Below are positions 3,999 to 28,498 of a stretch of DNA of 28,531 bases, in pieces (within the stretch, counting starts at the first letter, position 1; each line of letters begins with the position of its first letter). The position numbers and the translations under genes were made by a program. The notes beneath the pieces were generated by a model. The model had not been told where the DNA came from, did not search any database, and saw nothing but the letters and a program-made list of their open reading frames with translations. The stretch is from a virus: positions 1-28,531 of the IMG/VR virus record IMGVR_UViG_3300039456_000034. The stretch is one strand, 5' to 3'.

Positions 3999-4117
3999 TA
4001 GAATCCCTTTCGAATATCATTGGCGTGTGACGAAAGGTGCAGGCAATCGGGGTGCTAAACAAGCCCCGGTTGTCTGCGAAAACACTGCAGGACGCGGATC
4101 GCCATCCGTCGCTGACC

Positions 4118-4146
4118 GGGGGCAGGCGCGCCTGCAAGTGGCCCCC
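4118..4146. repeat. Perfect 14-bp palindrome in a nested inverted repeat
   Basis: GCAGGCGCGCCTGC (4122-4135) is fully self-complementary. It sits inside an outer pair GGGGGC (4118-4123, sharing two bases) and GCCCCC (4141-4146). It lies in the non-coding interval 3999-4171 upstream of both the leftward zinc-ribbon gene and the rightward ORFs, so an operator or an RNA hairpin is possible. The rest of that interval shows no gene I can support. Confidence 0.4.
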
Positions 4147-4171
4147 AAAACCTCCCTGTTGAACTTGGGGC

Positions 4172-4264
4172 GTGTTGGTGCAGATTGCGCCGCGCGCCCC
4201 GTTTTTTGGGGGGCGTTTTATGGATAATCGCTGCGATGAAGCGATGCGGGTTGCAGCCGAATGA
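4172..4264 (+). CDS. Very small ORF coupled to next gene (30 aa)
   Basis: A GTG-started frame, with an alternative ATG at 4220, whose TGA overlaps the ATG at 4261. The peptide is short and partly basic. The only support is the start-stop overlap with a probable gene; the ribosome site (TTGGGG) is poor. It may be the remnant of a longer gene or a translational leader. Confidence 0.25.
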   Translation: MLVQIAPRAPFFGGRFMDNRCDEAMRVAAE

Positions 4265-4707
4265 CTGCGCTCCCCACTCCTCTTGCGGTCCAGCGGCTGC
4301 AGTTTCCCGCGCAGCCAGATTGGACCTGGCTGCGGTGGCATTGGCAGCGTTTACCGGGCCTGCATGAGGCCATGCGCCTACGCGAAATCGCCACGCGCGA
4401 AAAAGACCAATTGGCGTGTTTGGCAACGCCATATCGCTACTCTGAGGGTGGGCCGGTGCTGGGTGCAGATTGTGCCGGCGCCTGGATGCAGGATCTCGCC
4501 GCTGCTGAAATTATGTCGATCTCGCCCGCCTTTCTGGCTGGCTGGTCAGGGTTGAAGGCCGCGCATGTCGCGCCATCGGTTCGGGTCAGCGGCTGCGTGG
4601 TGGTCCCGCCTGCGGTTGGCTGGCAAGAGGCCCCCGATGTCTGGCAGGCGGTTTGTCTGGCCTTGGTGGCGGTAAAACCTGTCTATCTGTTGGAGGGCTG
4701 CGCTTGA
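4261..4707 (+). CDS. Early operon hypothetical protein
   Basis: A 148-residue soluble protein, Trp-rich at the N-terminus (WTWLRWHW at about 21-28), with an Ala/Leu-rich middle and several Cys, and no transmembrane segment. It overlaps the following DnaA-like gene by one base (TGATG), so the two are coupled and probably belong to the same replication or early-control unit. No domain recognised. The start at 4261 is chosen from the overlap with a small upstream frame. Confidence 0.6.
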   Translation: MTALPTPLAVQRLQFPAQPDWTWLRWHWQRLPGLHEAMRLREIATREKDQLACLATPYRYSEGGPVLGADCAGAWMQDLAAAEIMSISPAFLAGWSGLKAAHVAPSVRVSGCVVVPPAVGWQEAPDVWQAVCLALVAVKPVYLLEGCA

Positions 4708-5117
4708 TGCCAATTAATCCAAGCGAGGCCATCAGGCACAGACTTGCATCGGACCCGGTGGCGGTCATTCTTGGTGTCGTGCGCGGTTATTACCATCTGC
4801 GCGCTGGCGAAATGATTGGGCCCAGCCGTGCGCGGCGCCTGGCTTGGCCGCGCCAGATCGCCATGGCGTTGGTGCGGCAGCGGGCCAATTGCAGCCTGCC
4901 AGAGATTGGCCGGCGCTTTGGCGGGCGGGATCACACCACTGTCATGCATGCGCTGCGCGCTGTTGCGGATCGGCGCAAAGCGGATCCGCGGTGCGCCGCT
5001 GAATTTGTCGAAATTGAACGCCGGGTCGAGATGGCCCTGGGGCGATCCTATGTCCGGCGTGAACACATCTGGGGCAGGCCGTTTGTCTCTGTTAGAGGGG
5101 AAGGGTGTGCCAAATGA
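4707..5117 (+). CDS. DnaA domain IV-like DNA-binding protein
   Basis: A 136-residue protein that matches only the C-terminal DNA-binding domain of the bacterial initiator DnaA. Residues about 24-110 carry the domain in order: YYHLRAGEMIG, then SRARRLAWPRQIAMALVR (basic loop and helix), then SLPEIGRRFGGRDHTTVMHA, the DnaA signature (about 63-82), then a helical tail. The AAA+ ATPase domain and Walker motifs are absent. ATG 4707 is preceded by GGAGGG (4692-4697); an upstream in-frame GTG is less likely. It would bind DnaA boxes, and a consensus box lies at 5885-5893. Roles could be phage origin recognition, recruitment of host replication proteins, or competition with host DnaA. Confidence 0.85.
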   Translation: MPINPSEAIRHRLASDPVAVILGVVRGYYHLRAGEMIGPSRARRLAWPRQIAMALVRQRANCSLPEIGRRFGGRDHTTVMHALRAVADRRKADPRCAAEFVEIERRVEMALGRSYVRREHIWGRPFVSVRGEGCAK

Positions 5118-5728
5118 ATGCTCATGCAAGCCATTTGCAGCCGGTCGATGCTGGCGGGTTGCCAGTTTATCCGATCGCGGTTGGGGAGCGGTTGGAAAGC
5201 CACTACTTTGTTGAATTTCATTATCAGCGCTGGTTGACAAGCGACACGCGGCTGCTGGCTGACCTTGAGGTTCGGTCAGTTTTCCTTGATCTAATCTGCC
5301 TTGCCCAAACGCAATCCCCGGTCGGCACGTTGCCAACCAATCCCAAGCTGCTGGCAAAGCTGGTCGGGCTATCGCAGGAAGTATTTGATGGGCTGTGCAA
5401 GCGCGAAGTCGGCCCGCTGCACAATTGGGCACCATGCCTGTGTGATGGGGTTCAGCGGCTGCATCACCCCGTGGTGACCGAAATCGCTCTGAAGGCGGTC
5501 AATTCCAAAAAACGCAATGCGGCCGCCAATGCCAATGATCGCGAACGCAAACGCTTTGCCAGCATCCGAAAGATCCTTGTACGCGATATTCCAGGCGGTG
5601 CCCGGTTTGCAGAGAGCCAGTCTATGGTTGAGCAGATCAGTGGTTGGATAGAGGGCGAGTATCCTGGCGGCAGTTGCACGGTGACGCGGGTGAAGGAGGC
5701 GCTGAATGCCTTGTCCGCGCGTGAGTGA
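5114..5728 (+). CDS. Putative replication protein (DUF1376-like)
   Basis: A 204-residue protein read from ATG 5114, which overlaps the stop of the DnaA-like gene; the upstream GTG at 5105 is less likely. The N-terminal two thirds (about 25-130) has Trp-Leu-Thr-Ser-Asp-Thr-Arg, a conserved helix, a TLPTNPKLLAKLVGLS segment and HPVVTEIALKAV, a layout resembling winged-helix replication proteins of the DUF1376 type. The C-terminal part is basic (KKRNAAANANDRERKRF at about 136-152). Its position after the DnaA-like gene and directly before the iteron/DnaA-box patch supports a role in replication initiation. The family assignment is tentative. Confidence 0.6.
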   Translation: MNAHASHLQPVDAGGLPVYPIAVGERLESHYFVEFHYQRWLTSDTRLLADLEVRSVFLDLICLAQTQSPVGTLPTNPKLLAKLVGLSQEVFDGLCKREVGPLHNWAPCLCDGVQRLHHPVVTEIALKAVNSKKRNAAANANDRERKRFASIRKILVRDIPGGARFAESQSMVEQISGWIEGEYPGGSCTVTRVKEALNALSARE

Positions 5729-5730
5729 TT

Positions 5731-5893
5731 TTCTTCCAGAAATCTTCCGCCGGAAGAAAACGGAATTCCGCCGGAAGATTTTGGAAGTTTTTTTTCTTCC
5801 AAAAAACGCGGTTCTGAAAGGAGAAGAGAAGAAAATGATAATGAAAAGATAACCGTTGGCGTGACGAAATTAGCCGGTTTCGGCTGTGGATAA
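5731..5893. other. Candidate phage replication origin
   Basis: A non-coding patch between two early genes. It holds two exact 13-bp direct repeats TTCCGCCGGAAGA (5745-5757 and 5766-5778) spaced 21 bp, two helical turns. Each contains the near-palindrome TTCC-GCC-GGAA. Further CTTCC/GGAAG half sites flank them (5733-5737, 5783-5787, 5796-5800). An A/purine-rich stretch follows (5801-5850). A consensus DnaA box in reverse orientation, TGTGGATAA, lies at 5885-5893. Iterons, an AT-rich stretch and a DnaA box beside replication genes are origin hallmarks; the assignment is inference. Confidence 0.55.
5885..5893 (-). promoter_or_regulatory. Consensus DnaA box (TTATCCACA)
   Basis: The plus strand reads TGTGGATAA, the exact complement of TTATCCACA, the high-affinity DnaA box. 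I saw no other exact box in the window. It overlaps the possible GTG start at 5886, and the phage encodes a DnaA domain IV protein 770 bases upstream. Confidence 0.6.
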
Positions 5894-6503
5894 GTGGGAA
5901 AGAGCAGAGAAAAGGTTCGGGGCTATGGGGTCAACAGACCTGAAGGAAGCAAAGAAGCGGGTCAGGGCGCATCTGGTGGATCCTCTGCTGCGATTGGGGT
6001 TGCGTCGGCCATCGGGAATGACGGTTAAGCAGTTCGATGAAATGGTCGATGAGCTGTGCGGGCGGTTGTCCTACATGACGGCATTGAACCTGGACGCCTT
6101 GGCAGAACAGGCAGCAGTGCGACCTAGTGGCCGGGATGGGTCGCGGTTTCCGATTGCTGCCAAGATCCTCGCATGGGCGGCGGAGATCCAAAGGCCTGAG
6201 GATACCGCCTCGCCCCTGATGATTGCAGTGTTTTCCGGGCCGATCGGTCAGGAGGCAGTGGCAGAAGATTGGGCGCCTGAATTGCTGTCGCATATACGAA
6301 AGTACCGGACATGGCCAAAGTCACCAGACTTGGCCGCCATCAAGGGGCGGGCTGATGATGCGCGGCGCAGGATTGCCAAGGCGCAGGAACTGGCGGGCCG
6401 TGGTTTTGTTGCCTCGCCAGAAGATCAGAGGCTGAAAGAGATGCGTGGCAAGGCGGCTCAAAGGTGCCGCCGGATACTGCAGGAAATTGAGGTGCAGCAA
6501 TGA
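5886..6503 (+). CDS. Early operon hypothetical protein, helical
   Basis: A protein of 205 residues if read from GTG 5886, or 192 from ATG 5925. The second start is better placed behind AAAGG (5911-5915), while the GTG has no ribosome site and overlaps the DnaA box; the extra 13 residues (WERAEKRF) still look protein-like, so both are kept. The product is largely helical, basic at both ends, with a Lys/Arg-rich C-terminal helix (about 150-205). It overlaps the next gene by four bases. Its location beside the candidate origin suggests a replication accessory role, such as a loader, but no helicase or loader motif is visible. Confidence 0.6.
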   Translation: MDKWERAEKRFGAMGSTDLKEAKKRVRAHLVDPLLRLGLRRPSGMTVKQFDEMVDELCGRLSYMTALNLDALAEQAAVRPSGRDGSRFPIAAKILAWAAEIQRPEDTASPLMIAVFSGPIGQEAVAEDWAPELLSHIRKYRTWPKSPDLAAIKGRADDARRRIAKAQELAGRGFVASPEDQRLKEMRGKAAQRCRRILQEIEVQQ

Positions 6504-7279
6504 ATGAGCAGGTGGTGATTGTAACCTCGGCTGGGGTGGCCCGATTGCAGGATGAGGCGGTTCGGATTGCCGAGATCAAGGCGCGTGGGTCTGTGCCGGT
6601 CGAGTGTGGCCCTGCTATCCCTATGGCTCCAGGCCGAGGCCCCATGATGCGCTTCACCCCGCGCGAAATGCGCCAGACCGAAGGCGGTGGCTATGTCTCC
6701 ATTAAGACAGGTGAGGCGGGACGGGATGCGGCACGGGTTGCAGATGCGTTCGATGCGATGGAGCGGGCTTCACTAAAGGCGCATCGGGCGGCAGAGGTCA
6801 GGCGGGCCTCGGTTGGACAGGATCCGCAAGCCTATAGCGCATTGTTCACGCCGGGGCAGATCAGCGTGGCGCGCGACTATGCGGCGCTGGTCGAGCGGGT
6901 CACAGCGTCGGGCGTCAAATGTTCGTCTCTTGAGGCTGTTCATTCCGGCGGTGCCGGTGGTGGTGATCGAGAGGCTGCGATTTTTCGGGACTTCCAGAGA
7001 TTGCGGGCTTTGCATCGCCGCATTGGCGATGGGCTGGCAAAGGAGGTTAGACGCATCCGGCCATCAAAGAATGGTGGGGTGAAGCGCCGGGCCATCTATG
7101 TTCGTCGGTTGGTGGATATGGTTTGCCTCGGTGACATGTCAATTCTTCAGGTTCTTCATTCGCATGGATGGTCAAAAGATGGTGGCGCATCAAAGGCTTT
7201 ACGGCTGTCTCTCTGTTCGGCTCTTGATCGAATGCAGGGATATGATTTGGCCAAAATGAAAAAGGGTGTTGACACTTAA
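6500..7279 (+). CDS. Putative late regulator or antiterminator
   Basis: A 259-residue protein, last gene of the early operon. The N-terminal 100 residues are low in structure cues. The C-terminal third (about 190-250) is basic and contains RRAIYVRRLVDMV, then MSILQVLHSHGWS, then a helix ending LDRMQGYDL, a pattern resembling a DNA-binding helix-turn-helix. The gene sits directly before a terminator (7314-7346) and the late operon, where Q-type antiterminators or late activators are found. Function is inferred from position and the HTH-like segment; there is no confident family match. ATG 6500 overlaps the previous stop. Confidence 0.6.
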   Translation: MNEQVVIVTSAGVARLQDEAVRIAEIKARGSVPVECGPAIPMAPGRGPMMRFTPREMRQTEGGGYVSIKTGEAGRDAARVADAFDAMERASLKAHRAAEVRRASVGQDPQAYSALFTPGQISVARDYAALVERVTASGVKCSSLEAVHSGGAGGGDREAAIFRDFQRLRALHRRIGDGLAKEVRRIRPSKNGGVKRRAIYVRRLVDMVCLGDMSILQVLHSHGWSKDGGASKALRLSLCSALDRMQGYDLAKMKKGVDT

Positions 7280-7313
7280 CCCACCCGCAGAGCATGAATA
7301 GTGCATCATCTAC

Positions 7314-7346
7314 AAAAGCGCCCACGGGAAACTGGCGGGCGCTTTT
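7314..7346. terminator. Strong hairpin terminator before the late operon
   Basis: Perfect 10-bp arms AAAAGCGCCC (7314-7323) and GGGCGCTTTT (7337-7346) with a 13-base loop. The A and T ends make it work in either direction. It separates the early operon from the HNH and terminase genes. A TTGACA (7269-7274) lies upstream, inside the end of the previous gene, but no good -10 is seen. Confidence 0.7.
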
Positions 7347-7382
7347 GCGTTGGTGGCTTTCAAACAGAGTTGGGATTACCCG

Positions 7383-7763
7383 ATGGCGCGACTAAAGATC
7401 TGCGTTGCTGCAGGTTGTGATGAGTTCGCATTGCCTGGGCTGTCGCATTGCGAAGAGCACGAGGCTGCGCGCAAGGCAAAGCTGAAGACGCGGCGCGCGG
7501 TGGCGCAGACCTCGCCAGCGGCCATTGCGGCTCGGCGTTTGTATGCAGATCCGAAATGGAAAGCCGCGCGACTGGTTCACTTGCGCGCCAATCCGATCTG
7601 CGCTGATTGCGATGAGCTGGGCGTGGTCGAGGCGGCAACGGATGTGGATCACATCATGCCGCACAAAGGCGATCGAAAACTGTTTTGGGATCGCAAGAAT
7701 TGGCAGAGCCTTTGCCACTCTTGTCACAGCCGCAAGACCGCGCGTGAGGTGTTCCACCGATAA
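7383..7763 (+). CDS. HNH endonuclease
   Basis: A 126-residue HNH nuclease read from ATG 7383; an upstream in-frame GTG at 7350 would start inside the terminator loop region and is less likely. The N-terminal segment has a Cys/His cluster (CVAAGCDEF, then HCEEHE), suggesting a zinc site. The HNH core follows: CADC (about 78-81), VDHIMPHKGD (about 92-101) with the DH pair, then LFWDRKNWQSLCHSCH with the catalytic Asn and the final zinc Cys pair. In HK97-like phages an HNH protein next to the terminase genes assists DNA packaging and cos cleavage, which fits its location here. Confidence 0.85.
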   Translation: MARLKICVAAGCDEFALPGLSHCEEHEAARKAKLKTRRAVAQTSPAAIAARRLYADPKWKAARLVHLRANPICADCDELGVVEAATDVDHIMPHKGDRKLFWDRKNWQSLCHSCHSRKTAREVFHR

Positions 7764-7765
7764 GG

Positions 7766-7789
7766 GGGGTATCTCAAAACTGAGGCCCC
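7766..7789. repeat. Hairpin in the HNH-terminase gap (cos candidate region)
   Basis: GGGG-TAT-CTCA (7766-7776), loop AAAC, TGAG-G-CCCC (7781-7789): a GC stem with small internal asymmetry. It begins the 109-base non-coding gap (7764-7872) between HNH and small terminase genes. In HK97-type phages cos usually lies in this position. No cohesive-end sequence can be named from sequence alone. Confidence 0.35.
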
Positions 7790-7872
7790 ACAATACAAAC
7801 CGGACGGATAACCTTTTTTTACGCGACCGGGAAATTGGAGAGAAAAACCCACTTTGAGAGGAGGGATGAGAA

Positions 7873-8331
7873 ATGAAGGGACGCAAGCCGGATCTGCAAA
7901 ATGTCATCCCCATGAAGGGGGATATCCAAAGAGAAATACCGGCGGCGCCGGACTTCATGGATGATCTCGCCCGTGATGTCTGGGATGAGCTGGTGCCGGA
8001 ACTGGTGAAGAAAGAACGGATGGAACTGCTCTTCAAATATCAGTTTGCGAGCTACTGCGTGGCGGTGTCAAATTTCATTTCCTCTACCAATACGGTGGCG
8101 ATGGAAGGCCAGTTTTATGACACTGGCAAGGGGCGCAACGGCAATCAAAAGCGCAAGCATCCAGCGCTGACCTTGCAGGAAACGGCGGCAAACACGATGC
8201 GGAGAGAGGCTGCTCTGTTTGGTTTGAGCCCAGTGGATGAGGCTCGGCTGGGGGCTGGAAGCCAAGGCGAGTTGTTTGATCAAGTAATGGCGCAGCTGAA
8301 TAAACCTACTGGAACCAATGGAACCAATTGA
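7873..8331 (+). CDS. Terminase small subunit, P27 family
   Basis: A 152-residue DNA-recognition subunit of the packaging motor. It has the P27/Terminase_4 layout: a basic start with Lys-Gly-Arg-Lys-Pro, a Pro-rich linker, a helical core (about 32-75) with DVWDELVPEL, then a G-K-rich turn and KHPALTLQETAANTMRREAALFGLSPVDEARLG (about 96-128), the family's characteristic end. ATG 7873 has a GGAGG ribosome site eight bases upstream. It overlaps the large-subunit gene by 14 bases. It probably binds the cos region just upstream. Confidence 0.85.
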   Translation: MKGRKPDLQNVIPMKGDIQREIPAAPDFMDDLARDVWDELVPELVKKERMELLFKYQFASYCVAVSNFISSTNTVAMEGQFYDTGKGRNGNQKRKHPALTLQETAANTMRREAALFGLSPVDEARLGAGSQGELFDQVMAQLNKPTGTNGTN

Positions 8332-9985
8332 CCACCCTGTCAGCCGCTATGCGCTGGGGGTTGTTGAGGGGGATCTGGTTGCGGGCGATCTGGTGCGGAT
8401 GGCCTGCGAGCGCCACCTGATGGATCTGGAAACCGGGGCCGATCGCGGGCTGTTTTTTGATTGCCAGGCCGCCAGCCGGATTATCAACTGGGGCGGCATG
8501 CTGCAGCACACAACCGGGCCGATGGCTGGCCAGCCTCTGAAGCTGGAACCCTGGCAGGAATTTAGGCATGGTTCTGTCTTTGGCTGGAAGCGATCGGAAA
8601 CCGGTCTGCGGCGGTTCCAGTCGACCTATCACCAGGTGGGCAAGAAGAACGGCAAAACCACGGATACGGCGGTGCCGATGCTCTATACCCAGTTGTTTGA
8701 TGGTGAGGCGGCGCCGCAGGGCTATTGCGCGGCGACCACCAAGAACCAGGCGGGGCTGCTATTCAAAGAAATGAAGCGGATGATCAAGCGATCACCGCTC
8801 TTGCGCGAATTCATGGATGTCTCACGCACCGCGATCGAGACGAACCAAACAGACGGGCTGATTGCCTGTCTGAGCCGGGACGGTGATTCCTCGGATGGGA
8901 TTAACCCCAGCTTTCTGGCGCGCGACGAAATGCACCGCTGGACCGATCGCGAACTGGCGGACACGATTGTTGAGAGCATGATCGCACGTGCGCAGCCGAT
9001 CGATTGGGTGATCACCACGGCGGGGCAAGACCGCGCATCGCTCTGCGGTGAGCTGCGCGACTATGGCGAAAGTGTGCTGCGCGGCGGCGTCGAGGATGAT
9101 GCCTTTTTTGGCTACATCGCAGAGCCGCCCGCAGATTGTGATCCGGCGGACCCGCAGTTCTGGGCCATGGGCAACCCCAATCTGGGGGTGAGCAAAAAGA
9201 TCGATGCGATGCAGTCGACGCTGAAAAAGGCTCTGGCGATCGCGGGGCGCATGCCCAACTTCAAGCGCTTTCACTTGAACCTCTGGACTGAAGGGGCAGA
9301 GACCTGGATTGCGCGGGATATCTGGGACAAGGGCATGGCCAGCGCGCCGTTTGACATAGAGCGCATGTATGGCCGCAAAGCCTGGGTCGGGCTGGATCTG
9401 TCCAACAAGATCGACACTACGGCGATTGTGATCGCGGTGCCAGTTGATGGGCTGATCTACCTGGTCGCCTTCACCTTCCTGCCAGAAGGGCCCAAGGGAT
9501 TTATTCAGCGGGCGCAATCGGAAAAGCGGGAATATGTCGGCTGGCGTGATCAGGGGTGGCTGGAGATCCACAAAGGCGGAACCATTGATGAGGATGAGCT
9601 GGCCACCCGGTTGGAATGGATCCGCCAGCACTTTGATCTGCAGGAAGTGGCCTATGACCCCTGGGGCATGAAGTATCTGGCCGACAAGCTGGACAAGCGC
9701 CGGTTTCCGATGGTGGAGCATCGGCAGGGCTATCAGTCGATGTCAAACCCGATGAAGCGGTTTGAAGAGAAGGTCATGGAAAACAAGATCCGCCACGGCG
9801 GCAATCCCATGCTGGCCTGGCAGGTTGGCAATGTGCACCGGGATGAGGACGCCTCGGAGAATGTTAAGCCGAACAAAAAGAAATCATCGGGCCGGATCGA
9901 TGCGGCTGTGGCCGCGATTATGGCGCTGGGGCGCGCCGAGGCGGGCGAACAGAAACGTAAAGCACGGGAAGTTGAAGTGGTATGA
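8318..9985 (+). CDS. terL: Terminase large subunit, HK97-type
   Basis: A 555-residue packaging ATPase and nuclease. ATPase domain: a deviant Walker A VGKKNGKT (about 107-114) and Walker B ending in ARDE (about 201-204, Asp203-Glu204), with an ITTAG coupling motif near 232-236. Nuclease domain: VGLDLS (Asp about 360) and AYDPWG (Asp about 447), plus a late Asp near the C-terminus (RIDAAVAA), the RNase H-like metal ligands. The length fits the Terminase_1 family. It pumps DNA into the prohead at the portal and cuts it with the help of the HNH protein. It overlaps the portal gene by four bases. Confidence 0.92.
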   Translation: MEPIDHPVSRYALGVVEGDLVAGDLVRMACERHLMDLETGADRGLFFDCQAASRIINWGGMLQHTTGPMAGQPLKLEPWQEFRHGSVFGWKRSETGLRRFQSTYHQVGKKNGKTTDTAVPMLYTQLFDGEAAPQGYCAATTKNQAGLLFKEMKRMIKRSPLLREFMDVSRTAIETNQTDGLIACLSRDGDSSDGINPSFLARDEMHRWTDRELADTIVESMIARAQPIDWVITTAGQDRASLCGELRDYGESVLRGGVEDDAFFGYIAEPPADCDPADPQFWAMGNPNLGVSKKIDAMQSTLKKALAIAGRMPNFKRFHLNLWTEGAETWIARDIWDKGMASAPFDIERMYGRKAWVGLDLSNKIDTTAIVIAVPVDGLIYLVAFTFLPEGPKGFIQRAQSEKREYVGWRDQGWLEIHKGGTIDEDELATRLEWIRQHFDLQEVAYDPWGMKYLADKLDKRRFPMVEHRQGYQSMSNPMKRFEEKVMENKIRHGGNPMLAWQVGNVHRDEDASENVKPNKKKSSGRIDAAVAAIMALGRAEAGEQKRKAREVEVV

Positions 9986-11262
9986 GGTTCTTTGGATGGG
10001 ATATTGCGCGCGGTTCAGATGAGACTGTTGTGCAGCGGGTCGAGCCGCCGGTGATGTCTGCCGAGGCCGCGACCTCTGGTACCATGGCACCAGAGCCTTG
10101 GCTGTCCGATATCGGCTGGGGCGGATCTGGTGGGCGGCTCGCGAAACATCTGCCGCGCGTCTCGCCCCAGCGGGGCGAACAGCATGCGACGGTGTTTGCC
10201 TGCTGCAACAATATCGCGGGGGATCTGGCCAAGGTGCCGTTGAAGCTCTGGCAGCGTAAAGGCGACGGGGAAGAGGTGCGGGTGCGCGATCACCCAGCGG
10301 CCTATCTGCTGAATGTCGAGGCCTCGGAGGGTGTGCCGGCCAAGGTGATGCGACTTGCTCTGATCTATGCCTGGGCGCTGCGCGGCAATAGCTATGCCTA
10401 TGGTCCTCGTGATGGCGGTGGCGAGCTGGAGCTGATCGAGATAATCAACCAGGATGCCTGCACGATGCTGCGCTCTGGCCGGTCGCGGTTCTATGATTTT
10501 ACCGATGGGGCAGACGTGCAGCGTCGCGCGCCCAGCCGGTCGATGGTGCATCTGCGCTATTTGGCGCTGGATGGCTGGACGGGCCGGTCTCCTTTGCAGG
10601 TCGCAACTGAGAGCGTTGGATTGGCTTTTGCCGGGCAAGAGGCGGCGGGCCGGTCTGTTTCTGGCGCCCATGCCAAGGCCTTTCTGAAACTAGGTGAAGG
10701 CTATGAAGACGATGCGGCGCGGACCCGCAATGCGCGGCGGCTCAAGGATCACATCACCAATCCGAACTCGGATGGCATTCCGGTTCTGGGGCCGGAGGAT
10801 GATATCAAAAGCCTTGATCTGACAGCGGCAGATCAGGAGCTACTGGCCAGCCGCAAGTTTGACCGCGAGCAATTGGCTGCAATTTACCGGATGCCGCCCA
10901 GCAAATTGCAGATGCTGGAAAACGGAGTGAAGGCAAACGGCGAACAGCAGGCGATCGATTATCTGACGGATTGCCTCTTGCACTGGTCGGGGTTGGCAGA
11001 GGAAGCCATGGCGATGTCGGTGCTGACGCGGGGCGAAAGAGATAGCGGCATGTTCCTGCGCCATGACTTTGGCGCTTTGCTGCAGCCCACAATCAAAGAT
11101 CAGATCGAGGCGGTGACCAAGGCGGTTGGCGGGCCGATCTATACCCCGAATGAGGGGCGCAAAAAGGTTGGGCTACCGGCCACGGAAAATGGCAACAAGA
11201 TGAACCCTGCGCCCAACATGACCCGCAAAGAAGAGGCAAAGCCGAAAGGAAAAGAGCAATGA
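9982..11262 (+). CDS. Portal protein, HK97 family
   Basis: A 426-residue protein of typical HK97-family portal length. Recognisable features are HATVFACCNNIAGDLAKVPLKLW (about 68-90), the loop NSYAYGPRDGGGELELIEI, VHLRYLALDGWTGRSPLQVA (about 191-210), a VLGPEDD/IKSLDLTAAD segment and the stem/crown region QLAAIYRMPPSKLQM (about 296-310). Twelve copies would form the ring at one capsid vertex through which DNA is packaged and to which the connector binds. It is coupled to terL upstream and to the protease downstream through ATGA overlaps. Confidence 0.92.
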   Translation: MRFFGWDIARGSDETVVQRVEPPVMSAEAATSGTMAPEPWLSDIGWGGSGGRLAKHLPRVSPQRGEQHATVFACCNNIAGDLAKVPLKLWQRKGDGEEVRVRDHPAAYLLNVEASEGVPAKVMRLALIYAWALRGNSYAYGPRDGGGELELIEIINQDACTMLRSGRSRFYDFTDGADVQRRAPSRSMVHLRYLALDGWTGRSPLQVATESVGLAFAGQEAAGRSVSGAHAKAFLKLGEGYEDDAARTRNARRLKDHITNPNSDGIPVLGPEDDIKSLDLTAADQELLASRKFDREQLAAIYRMPPSKLQMLENGVKANGEQQAIDYLTDCLLHWSGLAEEAMAMSVLTRGERDSGMFLRHDFGALLQPTIKDQIEAVTKAVGGPIYTPNEGRKKVGLPATENGNKMNPAPNMTRKEEAKPKGKEQ

Positions 11263-12182
11263 CAGTGACCACTATTGCAGCCCTGTTGGGGGCCGCGCCG
11301 CTGGCAATGTCCGAGCATGGATTGCCCATGTTGTCGATGGGGTTGCCAAAGGAAGAGGCTGTTTCCTCGGTTGATGTGTCAGCCATGGGTGGTGATGCGA
11401 TCAAGTTTGAACGTGGCCAGCGGTTTGCGGTGCATCGCGGCGTTGCCTTTGTTCCGGTGCGGGGCATCCTTACGCCAAACTCGGCCATGCTGGAGCGCTA
11501 TCTGGGCTGGGCCACCTATCACGGGTTGGCAGAAACCATGGCGGCAGTCACTGCCAGCGATGAGGTGCAGGCCACGGTGATGTTGTTTGACACGCCGGGC
11601 GGCTCAGTGATGGGCATTCAGGCCGCAGTGCAGGCGGTTCGCGCGGCAGTCTCGGTCAAGCCGGTGCATGGCTTGGTGCATCCGTTGGCGGCCTCGGCAG
11701 GCTACTGGCTGGCCAGCCAGTGCAGCGATTTGAGCGCCACCCCTGGCTCCTGGGTTGGCTCGGTTGGGACCATGGCCACAATGGCTCAACCAATGCAGCC
11801 GGGATCCGGTGGCGATCAAATCTTTATTCAGACCTCTGCCCATGCCGGGGCCAAGCGGCCTGACCCGTCAACAGATGAGGGCAAACAACTGACCCAGATG
11901 CGCCTGGATGAAATGGAAGGCGAATTCCTGGCGGGGGTTTCCGAGGGGCGCAAAATTTCCGTTGCAGATCTTCCTGGGCGGATGAGCCGCACGGATAATG
12001 CCGAGGATGGCGGCGACGTGTTTTGGGGAGCGGATGCAATCAGCCGCGGGCTGGTGGATGCAGAGGAAACCCTGCCTGATTTTCTGGGGCGCATCGGCGC
12101 GCTGTACGCTCCCAAACCGCGTGCCAAAACGCGGGCGGCCATGGCCCTGGCTGAAGCCGCCCAGGCGCAAGCTACCCTCTAA
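11259..12182 (+). CDS. S49-family head maturation protease
   Basis: A 307-residue protease of the SppA/S49 type found in HK97-like head modules. The oxyanion segment FDTPGGSV lies at about 110-117, the nucleophile Ser146 in LAASAGYW, the conserved GSVGT at about 167-171, and a Lys-containing segment AHAGAKRPD with Lys199 as the probable general base of a Ser-Lys dyad. The C-terminal part is helical with an Ala-rich tail. It would cleave capsid and scaffold-like regions during prohead maturation. It lies between portal and major capsid genes as expected. Confidence 0.88.
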   Translation: MTVTTIAALLGAAPLAMSEHGLPMLSMGLPKEEAVSSVDVSAMGGDAIKFERGQRFAVHRGVAFVPVRGILTPNSAMLERYLGWATYHGLAETMAAVTASDEVQATVMLFDTPGGSVMGIQAAVQAVRAAVSVKPVHGLVHPLAASAGYWLASQCSDLSATPGSWVGSVGTMATMAQPMQPGSGGDQIFIQTSAHAGAKRPDPSTDEGKQLTQMRLDEMEGEFLAGVSEGRKISVADLPGRMSRTDNAEDGGDVFWGADAISRGLVDAEETLPDFLGRIGALYAPKPRAKTRAAMALAEAAQAQATL

Positions 12183-12248
12183 AACTCACGATTAGTCACC
12201 GGCAACCTTGCCTGTGTTCACCTCGCGCATTTGCGGCGGGGCCAATTG

Positions 12249-12266
12249 GGCTGCGCTATTGCAGCC
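12249..12266 (+). repeat. Small hairpin before the capsid gene
   Basis: GGCTGC (12249-12254), six-base loop, GCAGCC (12261-12266), then TTTCC. It lies in the 109-base protease-capsid gap, 25 bases before the capsid start. It could be a weak terminator or an RNA processing or stability element for the abundant capsid mRNA. Confidence 0.3.
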
Positions 12267-12291
12267 TTTCCATGACGAAAAGGAAACCAAC

Positions 12292-13593
12292 ATGGATATC
12301 AACGATCTGCGCCGCATGCTGAAGGCGGCGGCTGAAACCATGGGAACCACGGCGCAGGCGCTGGATGATTTGGAAGCCAGCGGCACTGCCGAGGTCAGCG
12401 CGATCGAAGCGGCGACTGCTGCCTTTGATGCGGCCAAGGCGGACTTTGAAGGCCTGAAGGTGCGGGTTTCACGGGCTGAAGAGGTCGAGGCTGCCAAGGC
12501 CAGCACTGCCAGTTCTGAGCTGACCCCTGGTGGCCTTGGTGTCTCTGTGCCGGGGCAGGTTGCCAAGGCGGATGACAAGGGCGCTGATACCGGCCTGATG
12601 GTGGCGGCGCTGGCCAATTCCAAGGGCAACAAGGATCAGGCTGTCACCTTCCTTGAGGCGGAGGGGCACAGCGGTATTGCGGCCACTCTGTCTGGGGCCA
12701 GTGATGGGGCTGGCGGGGTGCTGATCCCACGGGCGCAAAGCGCGGTTTTGATCAGTCTTCTGAAGCCGCGTGTTGTGGTGCGCAAGCTGGGGGCACGGGT
12801 GCATGATATGCCTGCGGGCAAGCTGCGCATGGGGCGTGTCGCCTCGGCCCCCACGGCGGGCTATATCGGGGAAAACGCCCCGATTGTTGAAAGTGAACCC
12901 AGCTTTGACAAAGTGGATCAGGACTTCAAAACCCTGACCGCTCTGGTGCCGATCGGCAATGCGCTGCTATCGCATTCCAGCGCCAGCATTGGCGCGACGG
13001 TGCGGGATTTGCTGTTGGACTATATGGCGCTGCGCGAAGATCTTGCCTTCATTCGCGGCGATGGCACAGGCGAAACCCCCAAGGGTTTGCGCAACTGGTG
13101 CCTGCCCGCAAATGTCCGTCTGGCCGTGGCCAATACAGCGGCGGTTGTTGAAGCCAATCTGCGCTGGATGGTCAGCGTGGTGGAAGATGCCAATGTGGCC
13201 ATGCAACAGCCCGGCTGGATCATGCGGGGCGCAACCAAGCATTTTCTGGCCAGTCTGCGCGATCCATCGGGGGCGAAAATGTACCCTTCGATCGAGGCCA
13301 GCAATACGCTGCATGGCTACCCGATTGAGACCACCTCGCAGGTGCCGAACAATCTGGGCACGGGCAATGACACCGAAATTACCTTTGCCGACTTTGGTGA
13401 GATCATGATTGGCGACGATCAGGAAATCCGGGTGGCGTCTTCCACTGAGGCCTCGTTTGTGGATGTTGGTGGTAATACGATCTCGGCCTTTCAGCGGGAT
13501 CTGACCTTGATGCGGGCGGTCTCGCGTCATGACCTCGCCCCTGCCCATGATGAGGCGATCTCGGTGCTGACTGGCACCAGCTGGGGTCTCTAA
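12292..13593 (+). CDS. Major capsid protein, HK97 fold
   Basis: A 433-residue major capsid protein. ATG 12292 has an AAAAGGAAA ribosome site; a longer in-frame GTG reading from 12208 is unlikely. Residues about 1-105 form an Ala/Glu/Lys-rich coiled coil, the delta-like scaffold domain normally removed by the protease. The HK97 core follows: SDGAGGVLIP, LGARVHDMPAGKLRMGRV, GYIGENAPIVESEPSFDKV, LALREDL-like helix with FIRGDGTGETPKGLRN, GYPIETTSQVP, and the C-terminal FQRDLTLMRAVSRHD. It is followed directly by a strong terminator. Confidence 0.93.
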   Translation: MDINDLRRMLKAAAETMGTTAQALDDLEASGTAEVSAIEAATAAFDAAKADFEGLKVRVSRAEEVEAAKASTASSELTPGGLGVSVPGQVAKADDKGADTGLMVAALANSKGNKDQAVTFLEAEGHSGIAATLSGASDGAGGVLIPRAQSAVLISLLKPRVVVRKLGARVHDMPAGKLRMGRVASAPTAGYIGENAPIVESEPSFDKVDQDFKTLTALVPIGNALLSHSSASIGATVRDLLLDYMALREDLAFIRGDGTGETPKGLRNWCLPANVRLAVANTAAVVEANLRWMVSVVEDANVAMQQPGWIMRGATKHFLASLRDPSGAKMYPSIEASNTLHGYPIETTSQVPNNLGTGNDTEITFADFGEIMIGDDQEIRVASSTEASFVDVGGNTISAFQRDLTLMRAVSRHDLAPAHDEAISVLTGTSWGL

Positions 13594-13617
13594 ACCCCTC
13601 TGAACAGCACGACAATC

Positions 13618-13646
13618 GGGGCGGCCTAGCGGTCGCCCTTTTTTTT
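13618..13646 (+). terminator. Rho-independent terminator after the capsid gene
   Basis: GGGCGGCC (13619-13626), loop TAGC, GGTCGCCC (13631-13638) with one G-U pair, then eight T (13639-13646). It is a textbook intrinsic terminator inside the late operon, 25 bases after the capsid stop. Tail genes downstream must be reached by read-through, antitermination or another promoter. Confidence 0.85.
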
Positions 13647-13667
13647 CCTGAGATTTGGAGACGTGAG

Positions 13668-14150
13668 ATGACACGCATTCTGGTGCAATTCCTTGCGGGA
13701 TATTCCCGCTACAACAAAGGTGAAACCGCAGCGTTTGATGAGAAAAAGGCCAAACAGCTCTGCGCTGGGGCAAGCGCTGTCGCGCGGCTTGTTGGGCCTG
13801 TGAAACAGGTGACTGCTCTCACTAGTGAAGGCATCGATCTGCTGGAAAGCGATCGGCAGGAGCTGGCCCAGGCTGGCGAGAATATGGCGGATCAATTGGC
13901 GAGTGTTGAGCGCCGCGAAGAAGAGTTGCTGGTTGGTCTGTCTGGCCTTGAAGCGCGCGCGCGGGATCTGGCCGCGCGGGAGGCGGCTTTGCTGGGGCGC
14001 GAGGAAGAACTGCAGGCGGCACTGGATGCTGCGGTTGAATCCGTTTCTGAAGAAGAACCTGCAAAGACCCCCGCTGAACAGATTGAACCTGAAACGCAGG
14101 GCAAAGGGAAAGCGCCTGGTGCGCCGCCCAAACAGGGCGCAAAAAGCTAA
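13668..14150 (+). CDS. Small head-module protein with coiled coil
   Basis: A 160-residue protein. The N-terminal 45 residues have the pattern VQFLAGYSRYNKGETAAFDEKKAKQL seen in small proteins next to capsid genes. Residues about 75-130 form a long Glu/Arg/Ala coiled coil, and the tail is Pro/Lys/Gly-rich. ATG 13668 lies 21 bases after the terminator T-run with a GGAG ribosome site. It may be a head decoration or assembly protein; the exact role is unknown. Confidence 0.65.
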   Translation: MTRILVQFLAGYSRYNKGETAAFDEKKAKQLCAGASAVARLVGPVKQVTALTSEGIDLLESDRQELAQAGENMADQLASVERREEELLVGLSGLEARARDLAAREAALLGREEELQAALDAAVESVSEEEPAKTPAEQIEPETQGKGKAPGAPPKQGAKS

Positions 14151-14162
14151 GGGGCGCGAGTT

Positions 14163-14738
14163 ATGCGGGTGATTGAAGCGGGTGAAATTGCTGCTGGTGT
14201 GGATCTGGCTGACTTCAAGCGGTCGATCCACTTTCAGTCTGAGGATGCCGGGGATGATGCGGCACCGCAGTTGGCGCTGGAATCGGCGGAGGCCACTGTG
14301 GCAACCGCAACCGGTCGCCCGCTTACACCGCGCCGGGTGGAATTTGTTGTCACGCGTAGCGCGTGGCGGCGGTGGTGGTTTCCTGTGCTGCCGGTGCAGG
14401 AGCTGGTTGGGCTGGCGCTGGATGACGGTGCAGGTGGCTGGGTTGATCAGCCATTGGCCGGGGTCTGGGTGCAGCAGGCGCATGATGAGCCGCAGCTTGT
14501 TCTGGGCAACGCCTGGGCGGGGCATGCTGTGCATTCCGAACTGCTGCGGGTGCAGGCTAATGTTGGCGGCGCAGATGCGCCCACTGCGAAGCGTTTGCGG
14601 CAGGCGATCTTTTTGCTGGCCAAGGAATGGCTGGAAGCCGGGATCTCGATCGAGAATGAGGACGTGCCGCGCATGTCCTTTGGGGTGCGCCTGCTGATGA
14701 AACAGGCGCGCTACCGTCGCCCCTGCGAGGTGGCTTGA
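14163..14738 (+). CDS. Head-tail connector protein, gp6-like
   Basis: A 191-residue protein with the head-tail connector layout: an N-terminal helical part beginning with LADFKRSIHF and DDAAPQLALESAEATVATATGR (about 19-59), a beta-rich middle with conserved Trp residues and DVP-like turns, and a C-terminal helix (about 140-175) with LRQAIFLLAKEW. Proteins of this family form a ring under the portal and receive the tail. The position after capsid and before the adaptor supports this. AAGGGG serves as ribosome site. Confidence 0.8.
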   Translation: MRVIEAGEIAAGVDLADFKRSIHFQSEDAGDDAAPQLALESAEATVATATGRPLTPRRVEFVVTRSAWRRWWFPVLPVQELVGLALDDGAGGWVDQPLAGVWVQQAHDEPQLVLGNAWAGHAVHSELLRVQANVGGADAPTAKRLRQAIFLLAKEWLEAGISIENEDVPRMSFGVRLLMKQARYRRPCEVA

Positions 14739-14739
14739 T

Positions 14740-15069
14740 ATGGGCGGACGTTTGGACACACGCATTCAATTTCTGAGCAAAGCGCAGGTGGATGATGGGA
14801 TGCGGCGCGAAGACGTGTATCAGCCGCACGGCCAAAAAGTCTGGGCCTCTAAGGAGGATGCAAGCGCTGATGAGGTGTTTCGGGCGGGGCAGGATGCGGC
14901 GCACCTGGTGGCGCGGTTCAAGGTTAAGAAAACCGCCTTCACCTCATCGATCACTGCGGCGCATCGCCTGAGGTCCGGGGCGCAGGAATTTGAGATCTTG
15001 GGCATCAAGGAGGTTTCTGGCCGTGGCCGGATCCTTGAAATCACCGCCGTTGTGAAGATGCAGCCATGA
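14740..15069 (+). CDS. Head-tail adaptor (SPP1 gp16 / HK97 gp7-like)
   Basis: A 109-residue beta-rich protein starting GGRLDTRIQFLSK, followed by a charged segment with KVWASKEDASADEVFRAGQ (about 34-52), then strands with VKKTAFTS and EFEILGIKEVSGRGRILEIT, the pattern of phage head-tail joining proteins. It stacks below the connector ring to stop DNA leakage and dock the tail. It begins one base after the previous stop and overlaps the next gene by four bases. Confidence 0.85.
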   Translation: MGGRLDTRIQFLSKAQVDDGMRREDVYQPHGQKVWASKEDASADEVFRAGQDAAHLVARFKVKKTAFTSSITAAHRLRSGAQEFEILGIKEVSGRGRILEITAVVKMQP

Positions 15070-15515
15070 GCATGGAAATGAAGCTGGAGGGTTTCAGCGA
15101 ATTGGAAGATGCGCTGGACGAGCTGAGCAAATCAGCGGGGCGGGGTGTGTTACGCCGATCCCTGATGAAGGCGGCAGGGCCGATGGCGGATTTGATGCGC
15201 AGTGGTGCGCCGCACGGTGAGGGCGATCTGCAAGAAAGCATTGCGGTCAGCACCAAGCTGTCAAAACGGCAGGCGGCAGAGCATCGGGCGTTGTTCCGGG
15301 ATCAGCGGGCTGCGGTGGAGATGTTTGTGGGGGCGGGGCCATTGCCGCAGGCAACCCAGTCAGAATTTGGCAATGAGCATCAGGCGCCGCAGCCCTTTGC
15401 GCGGCCTGCCTGGGATCAGGATCAGCAGGCGCTGCTGGATCGGCTTGGCGGTCATCTCTGGGCGGAGTTTGAGAAATCACTGGCTCGCGCGCAGCGCAAG
15501 GCCGCGAAAGGATAG
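15066..15515 (+). CDS. HK97 gp10-like head closure/tail component
   Basis: A 149-residue protein of the HK97 gp10 type. Visible features are an N-terminal LEGFSELEDALDELSKSAGRGVLRRSLMKAAGPMADLMRSGAP (about 8-50), with basic helices leading to a Gly/Pro turn, a central beta region with MFVGAGPLPQATQSEFGN, and a C-terminal QPFARPAWDQDQQALLDRL (about 114-132) that matches the family's PFLRPA-type end. It joins head completion to the tail terminator. Coupled to the adaptor gene by an ATGA overlap. Confidence 0.85.
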   Translation: MSMEMKLEGFSELEDALDELSKSAGRGVLRRSLMKAAGPMADLMRSGAPHGEGDLQESIAVSTKLSKRQAAEHRALFRDQRAAVEMFVGAGPLPQATQSEFGNEHQAPQPFARPAWDQDQQALLDRLGGHLWAEFEKSLARAQRKAAKG

Positions 15516-27137: not shown

Positions 27138-28223
27138 CTAACAGTGGGGCTCGCTGCACACTCGCGCCAGCCATGGCCAACCATCATACTTGTCACCCGG
27201 CGTTTTAATGTGGCTGTATCGCTGCAAGCTTTGCCAACTGCGGTGGCCGGAAACGCTAGCGGCCAACGGGATCGTGCGGCCCATTTCAAACAGGCGGCTA
27301 ACCCCTTCATGCCGCAGATCATGGAAGCGCAGATCCTCGATTCCCAAGAGAGCGCAGGTCCGAATGAAGGACGCAGAAATGTTGTTTGCTCGGTAGGGGA
27401 ATATTGAAGCGCCCGCAGGACCGGTGGGCATGGATTTGATGATCCTCAGGGCCTCAGGGGTAAGTTCGCACCAAACATCATTCCCAATTTTTTCACCCGG
27501 ATTTTTCATATCCCTTACCAACACCCGGCTGTTTTCAGGTTCAAGATCCTCCCATTTGATCCTTACAATCTCTTCCTGTCGGCGCGTGGAGAATATCGCG
27601 AAAGCAATGATTTTGTGCATGGGCATGTGCCCGCGTCTGGCGCTGTCTTCATAGTGGCATAGGAGCTTATCCAGCTCATCTAGCGTAGGGCGTCTGTTGC
27701 GACGATTCGATTTCGAGATTATGCCGAGCTGTTTGCACACGACGAGTGCATCCGCCATAGCGGCGGGGTCAAGATCTAGGTTCCATGCAGGCCGCGCGAG
27801 CTTAAAGACCGGGGAGAGGTGAGTAAGGTAGTTCCCCACGGTGGAGGTCGCGCGGCTGCGCCCGAACTCTCTCGCAAAATCCACGATTTTCTGGCTGGTG
27901 ATTTCTTCGCAAGCAATTTGGGCAAGATCGGTTTGTGCTAGTTTTGCAAGGACTTGGGCCTTTGACTTCCCATAGCTCTTTTTGTGATCGTCAACATACC
28001 TGTTGATGGCGTCAGATAGGGTGGGGCGTGGTGCTCTGGCTTTTTCCAAAGCGCCAGGTTGGCGTAACTCTTTCTCGCGCCGTTGCATCCAAGCCTTTGC
28101 TGTGGCCCGGCGCGGAAACTGCCGAGACTCTCTGAAGGTTGGTTCACCCTTGCGTTTCAGAATAATCTGAGCCTTATAGGCGGTGCGTCCGTTGGATAAC
28201 TTGCGCTCTGCAATTGTTCCCAT
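27138..28223 (-). CDS. int: Tyrosine recombinase integrase
   Basis: A 361-residue phage integrase. The N-terminal part (about 1-60) is a basic arm-binding-like region, followed by a core-binding domain (about 68-165), then the catalytic domain (about 178-340). Catalytic residues are visible: Arg215 in STRRQEEI, a Lys near 240 (DMKNPGEK), His301-x-x-Arg304 in HDLRHEG, His327 in SGHRSW and the nucleophile Tyr336 nine residues later. It would integrate and excise the phage at attP/attB. It is transcribed toward the lysis genes, opposite to them, and its upstream region carries repeated GGTATGCC motifs. An antisense ORF across its end is a shadow. Confidence 0.92.
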   Translation of the reverse strand: MGTIAERKLSNGRTAYKAQIILKRKGEPTFRESRQFPRRATAKAWMQRREKELRQPGALEKARAPRPTLSDAINRYVDDHKKSYGKSKAQVLAKLAQTDLAQIACEEITSQKIVDFAREFGRSRATSTVGNYLTHLSPVFKLARPAWNLDLDPAAMADALVVCKQLGIISKSNRRNRRPTLDELDKLLCHYEDSARRGHMPMHKIIAFAIFSTRRQEEIVRIKWEDLEPENSRVLVRDMKNPGEKIGNDVWCELTPEALRIIKSMPTGPAGASIFPYRANNISASFIRTCALLGIEDLRFHDLRHEGVSRLFEMGRTIPLAASVSGHRSWQSLQRYSHIKTPGDKYDGWPWLARVCSEPHC

Positions 28224-28279: not shown

Positions 28280-28465
28280 ATAAAAGGGAAATACTCGTAA
28301 ACGCTGGAAAATGGGCGGAAAAGATGCGAGTTTTTAGGCGGGTTTTAGTTATGAAATCGGGCTAACATGTTGAACTTTCAGGAGATTTCCCCCTGAACGT
28401 GGTAGATTTGTAACCGGATTGCGGGCCACGCTAAATATTCCGCTAAAGAGGTCAGGATGTGAAGG
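28280..28465. other. Non-coding right flank, possible att region
   Basis: No gene is supported between the int repeats and the terminator. It contains an A/T-rich stretch and one 6-bp inverted repeat TTCAGG/CCTGAA (28377-28382, 28392-28397). Because the lysis-int order is contiguous to the left and int's 5' side points here, the phage-host junction (attR) may lie in this interval. No tRNA-like arms and no second copy of a core were found, so the core is not assigned. Confidence 0.3.
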
Positions 28466-28498
28466 ACCCCCTTTCGCTTGGCCGGACGGGGGTTTTTT
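28466..28498 (+). terminator. Rightward terminator near the right edge
   Basis: ACCCCC (28466-28471) pairs with GGGGGT (28488-28493) and a T run (28493-28498) follows. No rightward gene is seen immediately before it in the window, so it may belong to a host transcript or a small RNA cut by the integration. Confidence 0.6.

Follow-up and report, generated by a model that had tools for sequence, protein, structure and literature searches.

A free-standing DnaA domain IV gene varies independently of the adjacent origin-like region in a group of related phages

The closest described relative of the phage protein studied here, P1, is domain IV of bacterial DnaA (PF08299; 1J1V), with which it has in common the fold, a basic PRQ helix, an HTT recognition helix and all six canonical box-contact residues. 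P1 differs from bacterial DnaA in that domains I–III are missing, and with them the ATP switch, oligomerisation and the contact with DnaB. Stand-alone DnaA C-terminal domains like P1 also occur in Rhizobium phage RHph_N28_2, Aurantimonas phage AmM-1 (no AAA family was found in its DnaA-like protein), Pelagibacter phage HTVC203P and Bradyrhizobium phage ppBeUSDA76-2, mostly near replication-type genes; however, these proteins are only 34–43% identical to P1, have other flanking sequence and lack its C-terminal tail motif. The literature that we searched reports no function for these four proteins. For phage proteins made only of DnaA domain IV in general, it yielded annotations but no functional study or mechanism, in agreement with an earlier note, made from the sequence of this DNA, that no mechanism is established. 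P1 belongs to an annotated, functionally unstudied kind of protein, and the new information lies in natural swap pairs.

Other phage-encoded or phage-derived proteins invite comparison. The gene transfer agent activators GafA and GafY, from alphaproteobacterial phage-derived systems, have a small or N-terminal DnaA-like helix-turn-helix (HTH) domain (PMC9638019, PMC11150451), whereas the GafA family compared here has neither the PRQ nor the HTT motif of P1 and gives no significant profile match to it. The GcrA homologs of phiCbK-like phages (PMC3556154) and the truncated CtrA of RDJL Phi 1, which lacks the receiver domain (PMC6363796), are cases in which, as with P1, a phage carries a host cell-cycle regulator or its DNA-binding part, although they belong to other protein families and the regulator here is DnaA. 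The prophage protein YfdR is reported to bind host DnaA, and overexpression of its gene cluster to inhibit initiation (PMC4776307).

The DNA analysed, from a prophage of a marine bacterium and referred to here as the window, is the whole of the 28,531-base IMG/VR virus record IMGVR_UViG_3300039456_000034, on which repressor, terminase, capsid, tail and integrase ORFs are present. P1 is a 136-aa protein encoded on the plus strand at 4707–5117, from the ATG at 4707 to the TGA at 5117. Bac_DnaA_C (Pfam PF08299) covers residues 20–86 (E = 1.4e-23, 83 bits against a cut-off of 31.5), and this core, encoded at 4764–4964 (+), contains the basic PRQ helix and the HTT recognition helix. No AAA/ATPase family was found in P1 with Pfam, and the NCBIfam matches were likewise restricted to domain IV, with only the last 90 model positions of DnaA TIGR00362 matched. 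With a significant domain match and no AAA+ domain, P1 is a stand-alone Bac_DnaA_C protein; it has none of domains I–III, and so lacks both the AAA+ domain III with Walker motifs and the domain I that define a DnaA initiator. The earlier note had described a DnaA domain IV without the ATPase domain, carrying PRQIAMAL and GGRDHTTVMHA, and both motifs are present exactly as it gave them.

Structure prediction, which had been put forward as a check on that assignment, bears it out. An AlphaFold model of P1 built from 35 viral homologs has a pLDDT of 93–98 over the domain core, and a Foldseek search with this model returned 1J1V (TM 0.90, 1.0 Å rmsd), followed by the M. tuberculosis DnaA DNA-binding domain bound to DNA. 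The best solved relative of P1 by sequence is also 1J1V (E = 9.8e-18), the structure of E. coli DnaA domain IV on a DnaA box. All six E. coli box-contact positions (R399, R407, Q408, H434, T435 and T436) are identical in P1, and the divergent P1 of locus L126 keeps all six as well. R407, Q408, H434 and T436 are box contacts in 1J1V. Roles have been described for R399, S400 and T435 (PMC9638019). We infer that P1 would bind the DnaA box TTATCCACA. P1 is a maintained gene under purifying selection, because its dN/dS is low: 0.10–0.19 among the window phage, L002 and L215, and 0.13–0.19 between the window and the latter two, whose copies are 92% identical to it.

A second conserved feature lies in the C-terminal tail, where the motif (Y/F)VRxxHxxG(R/K)xFxxVR (5049–5096, +) is present in the P1s of the window, L002, L215, L126 and L129. 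The window and L126 have it in common although their P1s are only ~31% identical. Outside both P1 clades, the protein set held only one loose match (one short ORF, on two contigs), and 14,562 reversed ORFs gave 0 matches. The tail may contact a partner. In a domain IV tree, the P1s of both clades fall together (support 0.86), joined by one Mu-like phage protein, and the DnaA clade of Rhodobacteraceae (support 0.97) excludes this group, in a tree that is weak at 90 residues. P1 is ~52% identical to the DnaA domain IV found in one host whose prophage carries a P1; its placement outside the Rhodobacteraceae clade makes a recent capture from these hosts unlikely.

The P1 gene sits tightly between its neighbours. 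Upstream is P5 (4261–4707, +), a 148-aa early protein of unassigned family, whose stop overlaps the P1 start and which forms the left border of a swappable slot. Downstream is P2 (5114–5728, +), whose ATG at 5114 overlaps the P1 stop (ATGA). P2 is a putative replication initiator, a reasoned label: it has a weak match to PHROG 22470 'replication protein' (E = 1.9e-6), an annotated DUF1376 protein is detected as well with the HMM of the P2 family (E = 2.7e-4), and iteron type differs between phages when P2 differs. The predicted fold of P2 gave no significant match to the PDB, the weak matches being of winged-helix type and including plasmid initiators. P2 is followed by an AT-rich, origin-like repeat region (5729–5862; 40% GC against 59% overall) with two copies of TTCCGCCGGAAGA (5745–5757 and 5766–5778) and then, between the repeats and P3, by a single DnaA box TTATCCACA on the minus strand (5885–5893). 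The interval 5731–5893, proposed earlier for footprinting, thus does contain repeats and one exact box. P3 (5926–6503, +) is of unassigned family; its start is likelier to be the ATG at 5926 than the GTG at 5886, the latter overlapping the DnaA box.

P4 (6500–7279, +) is a conserved protein directly before the HNH and terminase genes. Its homologs in Rhodobacter phage RcapNL and Paracoccus phages Pthi1 and Psul1 likewise directly precede late genes, namely HNH, terminase or related ones, and RcapNL and Pthi1 have primase-type replication genes in place of P2. P4 precedes late genes whatever the replication module and is a candidate late regulator. Upstream of P5 we observed a structured noncoding element (4030–4225, +) that ends in a terminator-like hairpin and T run. 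It is 94% identical to two copies in L002 (122–315 and 877–1090), recurs in L085, L086, L122, L125 and L130, and shows two-sided changes at eight predicted pairs; Rfam gave no match, and a leader or antitermination RNA is possible. Near the right end of the window, a SAM-alpha riboswitch (RF00521, 55.8 bits; 28389–28467) lies beside the integrase gene (27138–28223), and this region is probably host DNA next to the attachment site. PADLOC gave no match, and a defence function was rejected on this basis.

One exact box in a window is not surprising in itself, but its conservation across relatives is. An exact TTATCCACA occurs in 33 of 44 distinct P2–P3 spacers and a one-mismatch version in 6 more, and in all 39 spacers that hold it the box has the same orientation, ~35 nt before P3. 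The window shows no enrichment of boxes (4 sites with at most one mismatch, 2.9 expected), and further boxes as targets of P1 were rejected for this reason. This agrees with a survey of cell-cycle regulator sites in alphaproteobacterial phages, which reported no positional bias for DnaA sites (PMC9437464). Iterons vary between phages while the box stays, and ~30 spacers have the box without P1. Since only 4 of the 44 loci surveyed for the box carry P1, the conserved box is most simply read as a site for host DnaA at these phage origins.

Does P1 travel with its origin? Scanning genomes and viral contigs for the P4 family, together with phages already collected, yielded 97 loci. P2 and P3 are present in ~60 of these, while P1 occurs only in the window, L002 (same contig as L121), L126 and L129, that is, in 4 of 44 distinct P2–P3 loci. 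The clearest comparison is with L084, a prophage in an uncultured Pseudophaeobacter genome that is 99.1% identical to window positions 5114–15275, a block comprising P2, the repeats, the DnaA box, P3, P4 and structural genes. L084 has two unrelated genes in place of P1, set exactly between the end of P5 and the beginning of P2; one is HTH/NUMOD-like and one encodes 211 aa, and the replacement forms the same ATGA junction with P2. In a second swap, L126 and L129 carry a P1 of the other clade where L125, L127 and L128 carry a 118-aa protein of unassigned family, and the two sets are ~93–95% identical across P2, the origin, P3 and P4. Change in the opposite direction is seen in L002 and a Pseudophaeobacter flagellatus prophage (L182/L215), which keep P1 at 92% while their P2s and iterons differ. 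In L215, P1 is present and the DnaA box absent; this prophage may be decaying, because it has two P2-like ORFs and no P4 within the stretch read. Given the swaps at a constant origin and the retention of P1 with other P2s and iterons, P1 and the origin vary independently. An essential initiator would be a required partner of its origin; here, near-identical origins are found with the gene replaced, and this natural variation suggests that P1 is not such a partner.

Where the slot holds something else, this is often another DNA-binding protein, be it NUMOD/HTH, weakly GcrA-like or degenerate DnaA-like. In a Rhodobacter aestuarii prophage the slot is taken by a 209-aa protein (L119, 5841–6470) with a degenerate DnaA-IV-like HTH that scores below the Bac_DnaA_C cut-off (E = 0.0016). 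Two further occupants (L133, 2751–3476, and L169, 5927–6505) have a weak GcrA-type HTH (PF07750) with 29.7 and 25.0 bits against a cut-off of 26.9.

ORFs consisting of DnaA domain IV only are widespread in phages. They were found in 68 viral loci, 24 of which have a replication-type gene within 3.5 kb. Most of these loci were recruited with patterns including DHTTVMHA, and conservation of that motif among them is partly by construction; outside the recruitment patterns lies the R399-equivalent position, where 72 of 73 viral proteins have R or K, and L126 and L129 were recruited through P4 and not via DnaA patterns. A Mu transposase C-terminal domain scored above the Pfam cut-off in 13 of 56 other viral records tested, so at least 13 Mu-like records have a DnaA-IV-only protein. 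In a Rhodobacteraceae Mu-like prophage (genome G112; L216, 6381–6896 and 6896–9892), the DnaA-IV gene directly follows and abuts MuB (Phage-MuB_C), which lies next to MuA (DDE_2). A search for Mor as the gene replaced by DnaA-IV in Mu-like phages was mostly negative. Clear short DnaA-IV ORFs beside a full DnaA were found in only two or three of 121 host-family genomes. Longer DnaA-IV ORFs were considered as a clue to fusions, and Bac_DnaA_C was the only domain found in them. Top 'phage' matches that were chromosomal dnaA in records with host DNA were set aside. The public 'Acinetobacter phage' record CAKLQH020000026.1 (L075), for example, carries the chromosomal order rnpA-rpmH-dnaA-dnaN-recF-gyrB and is therefore host DNA or includes some, and several other top phage matches resemble it in this respect.

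The earlier note had offered two proposals for P1, recruitment of host helicase-loading factors to the phage origin and occupancy of host DnaA boxes. The former corresponds to a reading in which P1 is an auxiliary initiation factor at its own origin, binding the box at 5885–5893, helping P2 to open the origin or recruit the helicase, and lessening dependence on host DnaA. The overlap of the P1 stop with the P2 start is what such a factor might show, but the replacement genes of L084 make the same ATGA junction. The conserved box directly after the iterons also fits, but the same origin is found in phages without P1, ~30 boxes occur without the gene, and L215 has the gene without the box. Proximity to a replication-type gene in 24 of 68 viral loci, and annotated phages with a DnaA-IV gene beside DUF1376, replisome-organizer or primase genes, favour a role at the origin; against this, such genes are also found in Mu-type phages, whose replication is by transposition and involves no theta origin. 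Domain I, with which full-length DnaA contacts DnaB, is absent from P1. Recruitment as a required role is weakened by these observations, above all by the swaps at the same origin (L084; the L126/L129 set), and we consider auxiliary initiation rather unlikely. It is also unlikely that P1 is a transcription factor without a replication role, acting at DnaA-box-like sites of phage early or late genes (e.g., P3–P4 via the leader box) or of the host cell-cycle regulon. The box ~35 nt upstream of the P3 start and the HTH proteins among the other slot occupants are consistent with this, as are the role of DnaA as a transcription factor in Alphaproteobacteria (PMC3193534) and the action in transcription of the DnaA-like domains of GafA and GafY (PMC9638019, PMC11150451). 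However, the phage has only one exact box, this box is conserved where P1 is absent, and the P4 family occurs without P1 in nearly all loci.

That last distribution also speaks against P1 as a GafY/GafA-type activator that switches on late genes with P4 as its GafZ-like partner. GafY and the N-terminal part of GafA have a DnaA-like HTH and GafZ a sigma-like HTH (PMC9638019, PMC11150451), and P4 lies at the late-gene boundary. We compared P1 and P4 with aligned RDJL Phi 1 gp38 and host GafA, a set that represents Rhodobacterales GafA. Here hhalign gave probabilities of 15% for P1 and 6% for P4, too low for homology of P1 to the GafA N-terminal domain, and the PRQ and HTT motifs for box contact are missing from GafA. 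P4, the candidate for a GafZ- or GafA-C-type sigma-like partner, shows no similarity to GafA and is usually found without P1, which speaks against a genetic coupling of the two. By sequence comparison with Rhodobacterales GafA, P1 is not of the GafY/GafA type, and we give this reading next to no credence. A passenger with no present function would account for the dispensability of P1 in close relatives, but it is very improbable in view of a dN/dS of 0.10–0.19 among the window, L002 and L215 and of the contacts and the tail motif that both diverged clades have kept.

Occupancy of host boxes, the other proposal, fits better, because the contacts are conserved, the phage has one exact box, Mu-like phages carry similar proteins and the gene behaves like an early cassette that is optional. 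We propose that P1 serves a temperate Rhodobacterales phage as an early, DNA-binding accessory protein that is not obligatory. As a free domain IV, it would keep DnaA-box specificity while the parts for ATP binding, oligomerisation and helicase contact are gone. Once made, P1 would occupy DnaA boxes on the host chromosome, at oriC and DnaA-regulated promoters, and would compete there with host DnaA, such that host initiation is delayed or the DnaA regulon shifted, while the phage replicates from its own P2 and iteron origin. We hold this with a probability of roughly 45%. Two observations argue against competition: the nearby replication-type gene in 24 of 68 viral loci is as expected for an origin helper, and most relatives with P1 conserve the origin box of the phage itself, a site that a competitor for DnaA boxes would occupy as well. 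That P1 is dispensable makes it accessory and does not show its action. A broader generalisation, which we regard as doubtful, is that temperate phages of Alphaproteobacteria reserve one swappable early position for proteins that mimic the DNA binding of host cell-cycle regulators. On this view, the free DnaA domain IV, carried by phages of both the iteron-origin and the Mu-like type, would be a general factor that reprograms the host or counteracts initiation by competing with host DnaA for its boxes.

The single, uniformly oriented box after variable iterons suggests that origins across Rhodobacterales prophages depend on host DnaA. Phage pairs with a common origin that differ at the P1 gene make the question testable, and they direct attention to the host rather than to the phage origin. 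Should competition with host DnaA prove true of these proteins, phages would have in them a simple means to pause host initiation or to shift the DnaA regulon.
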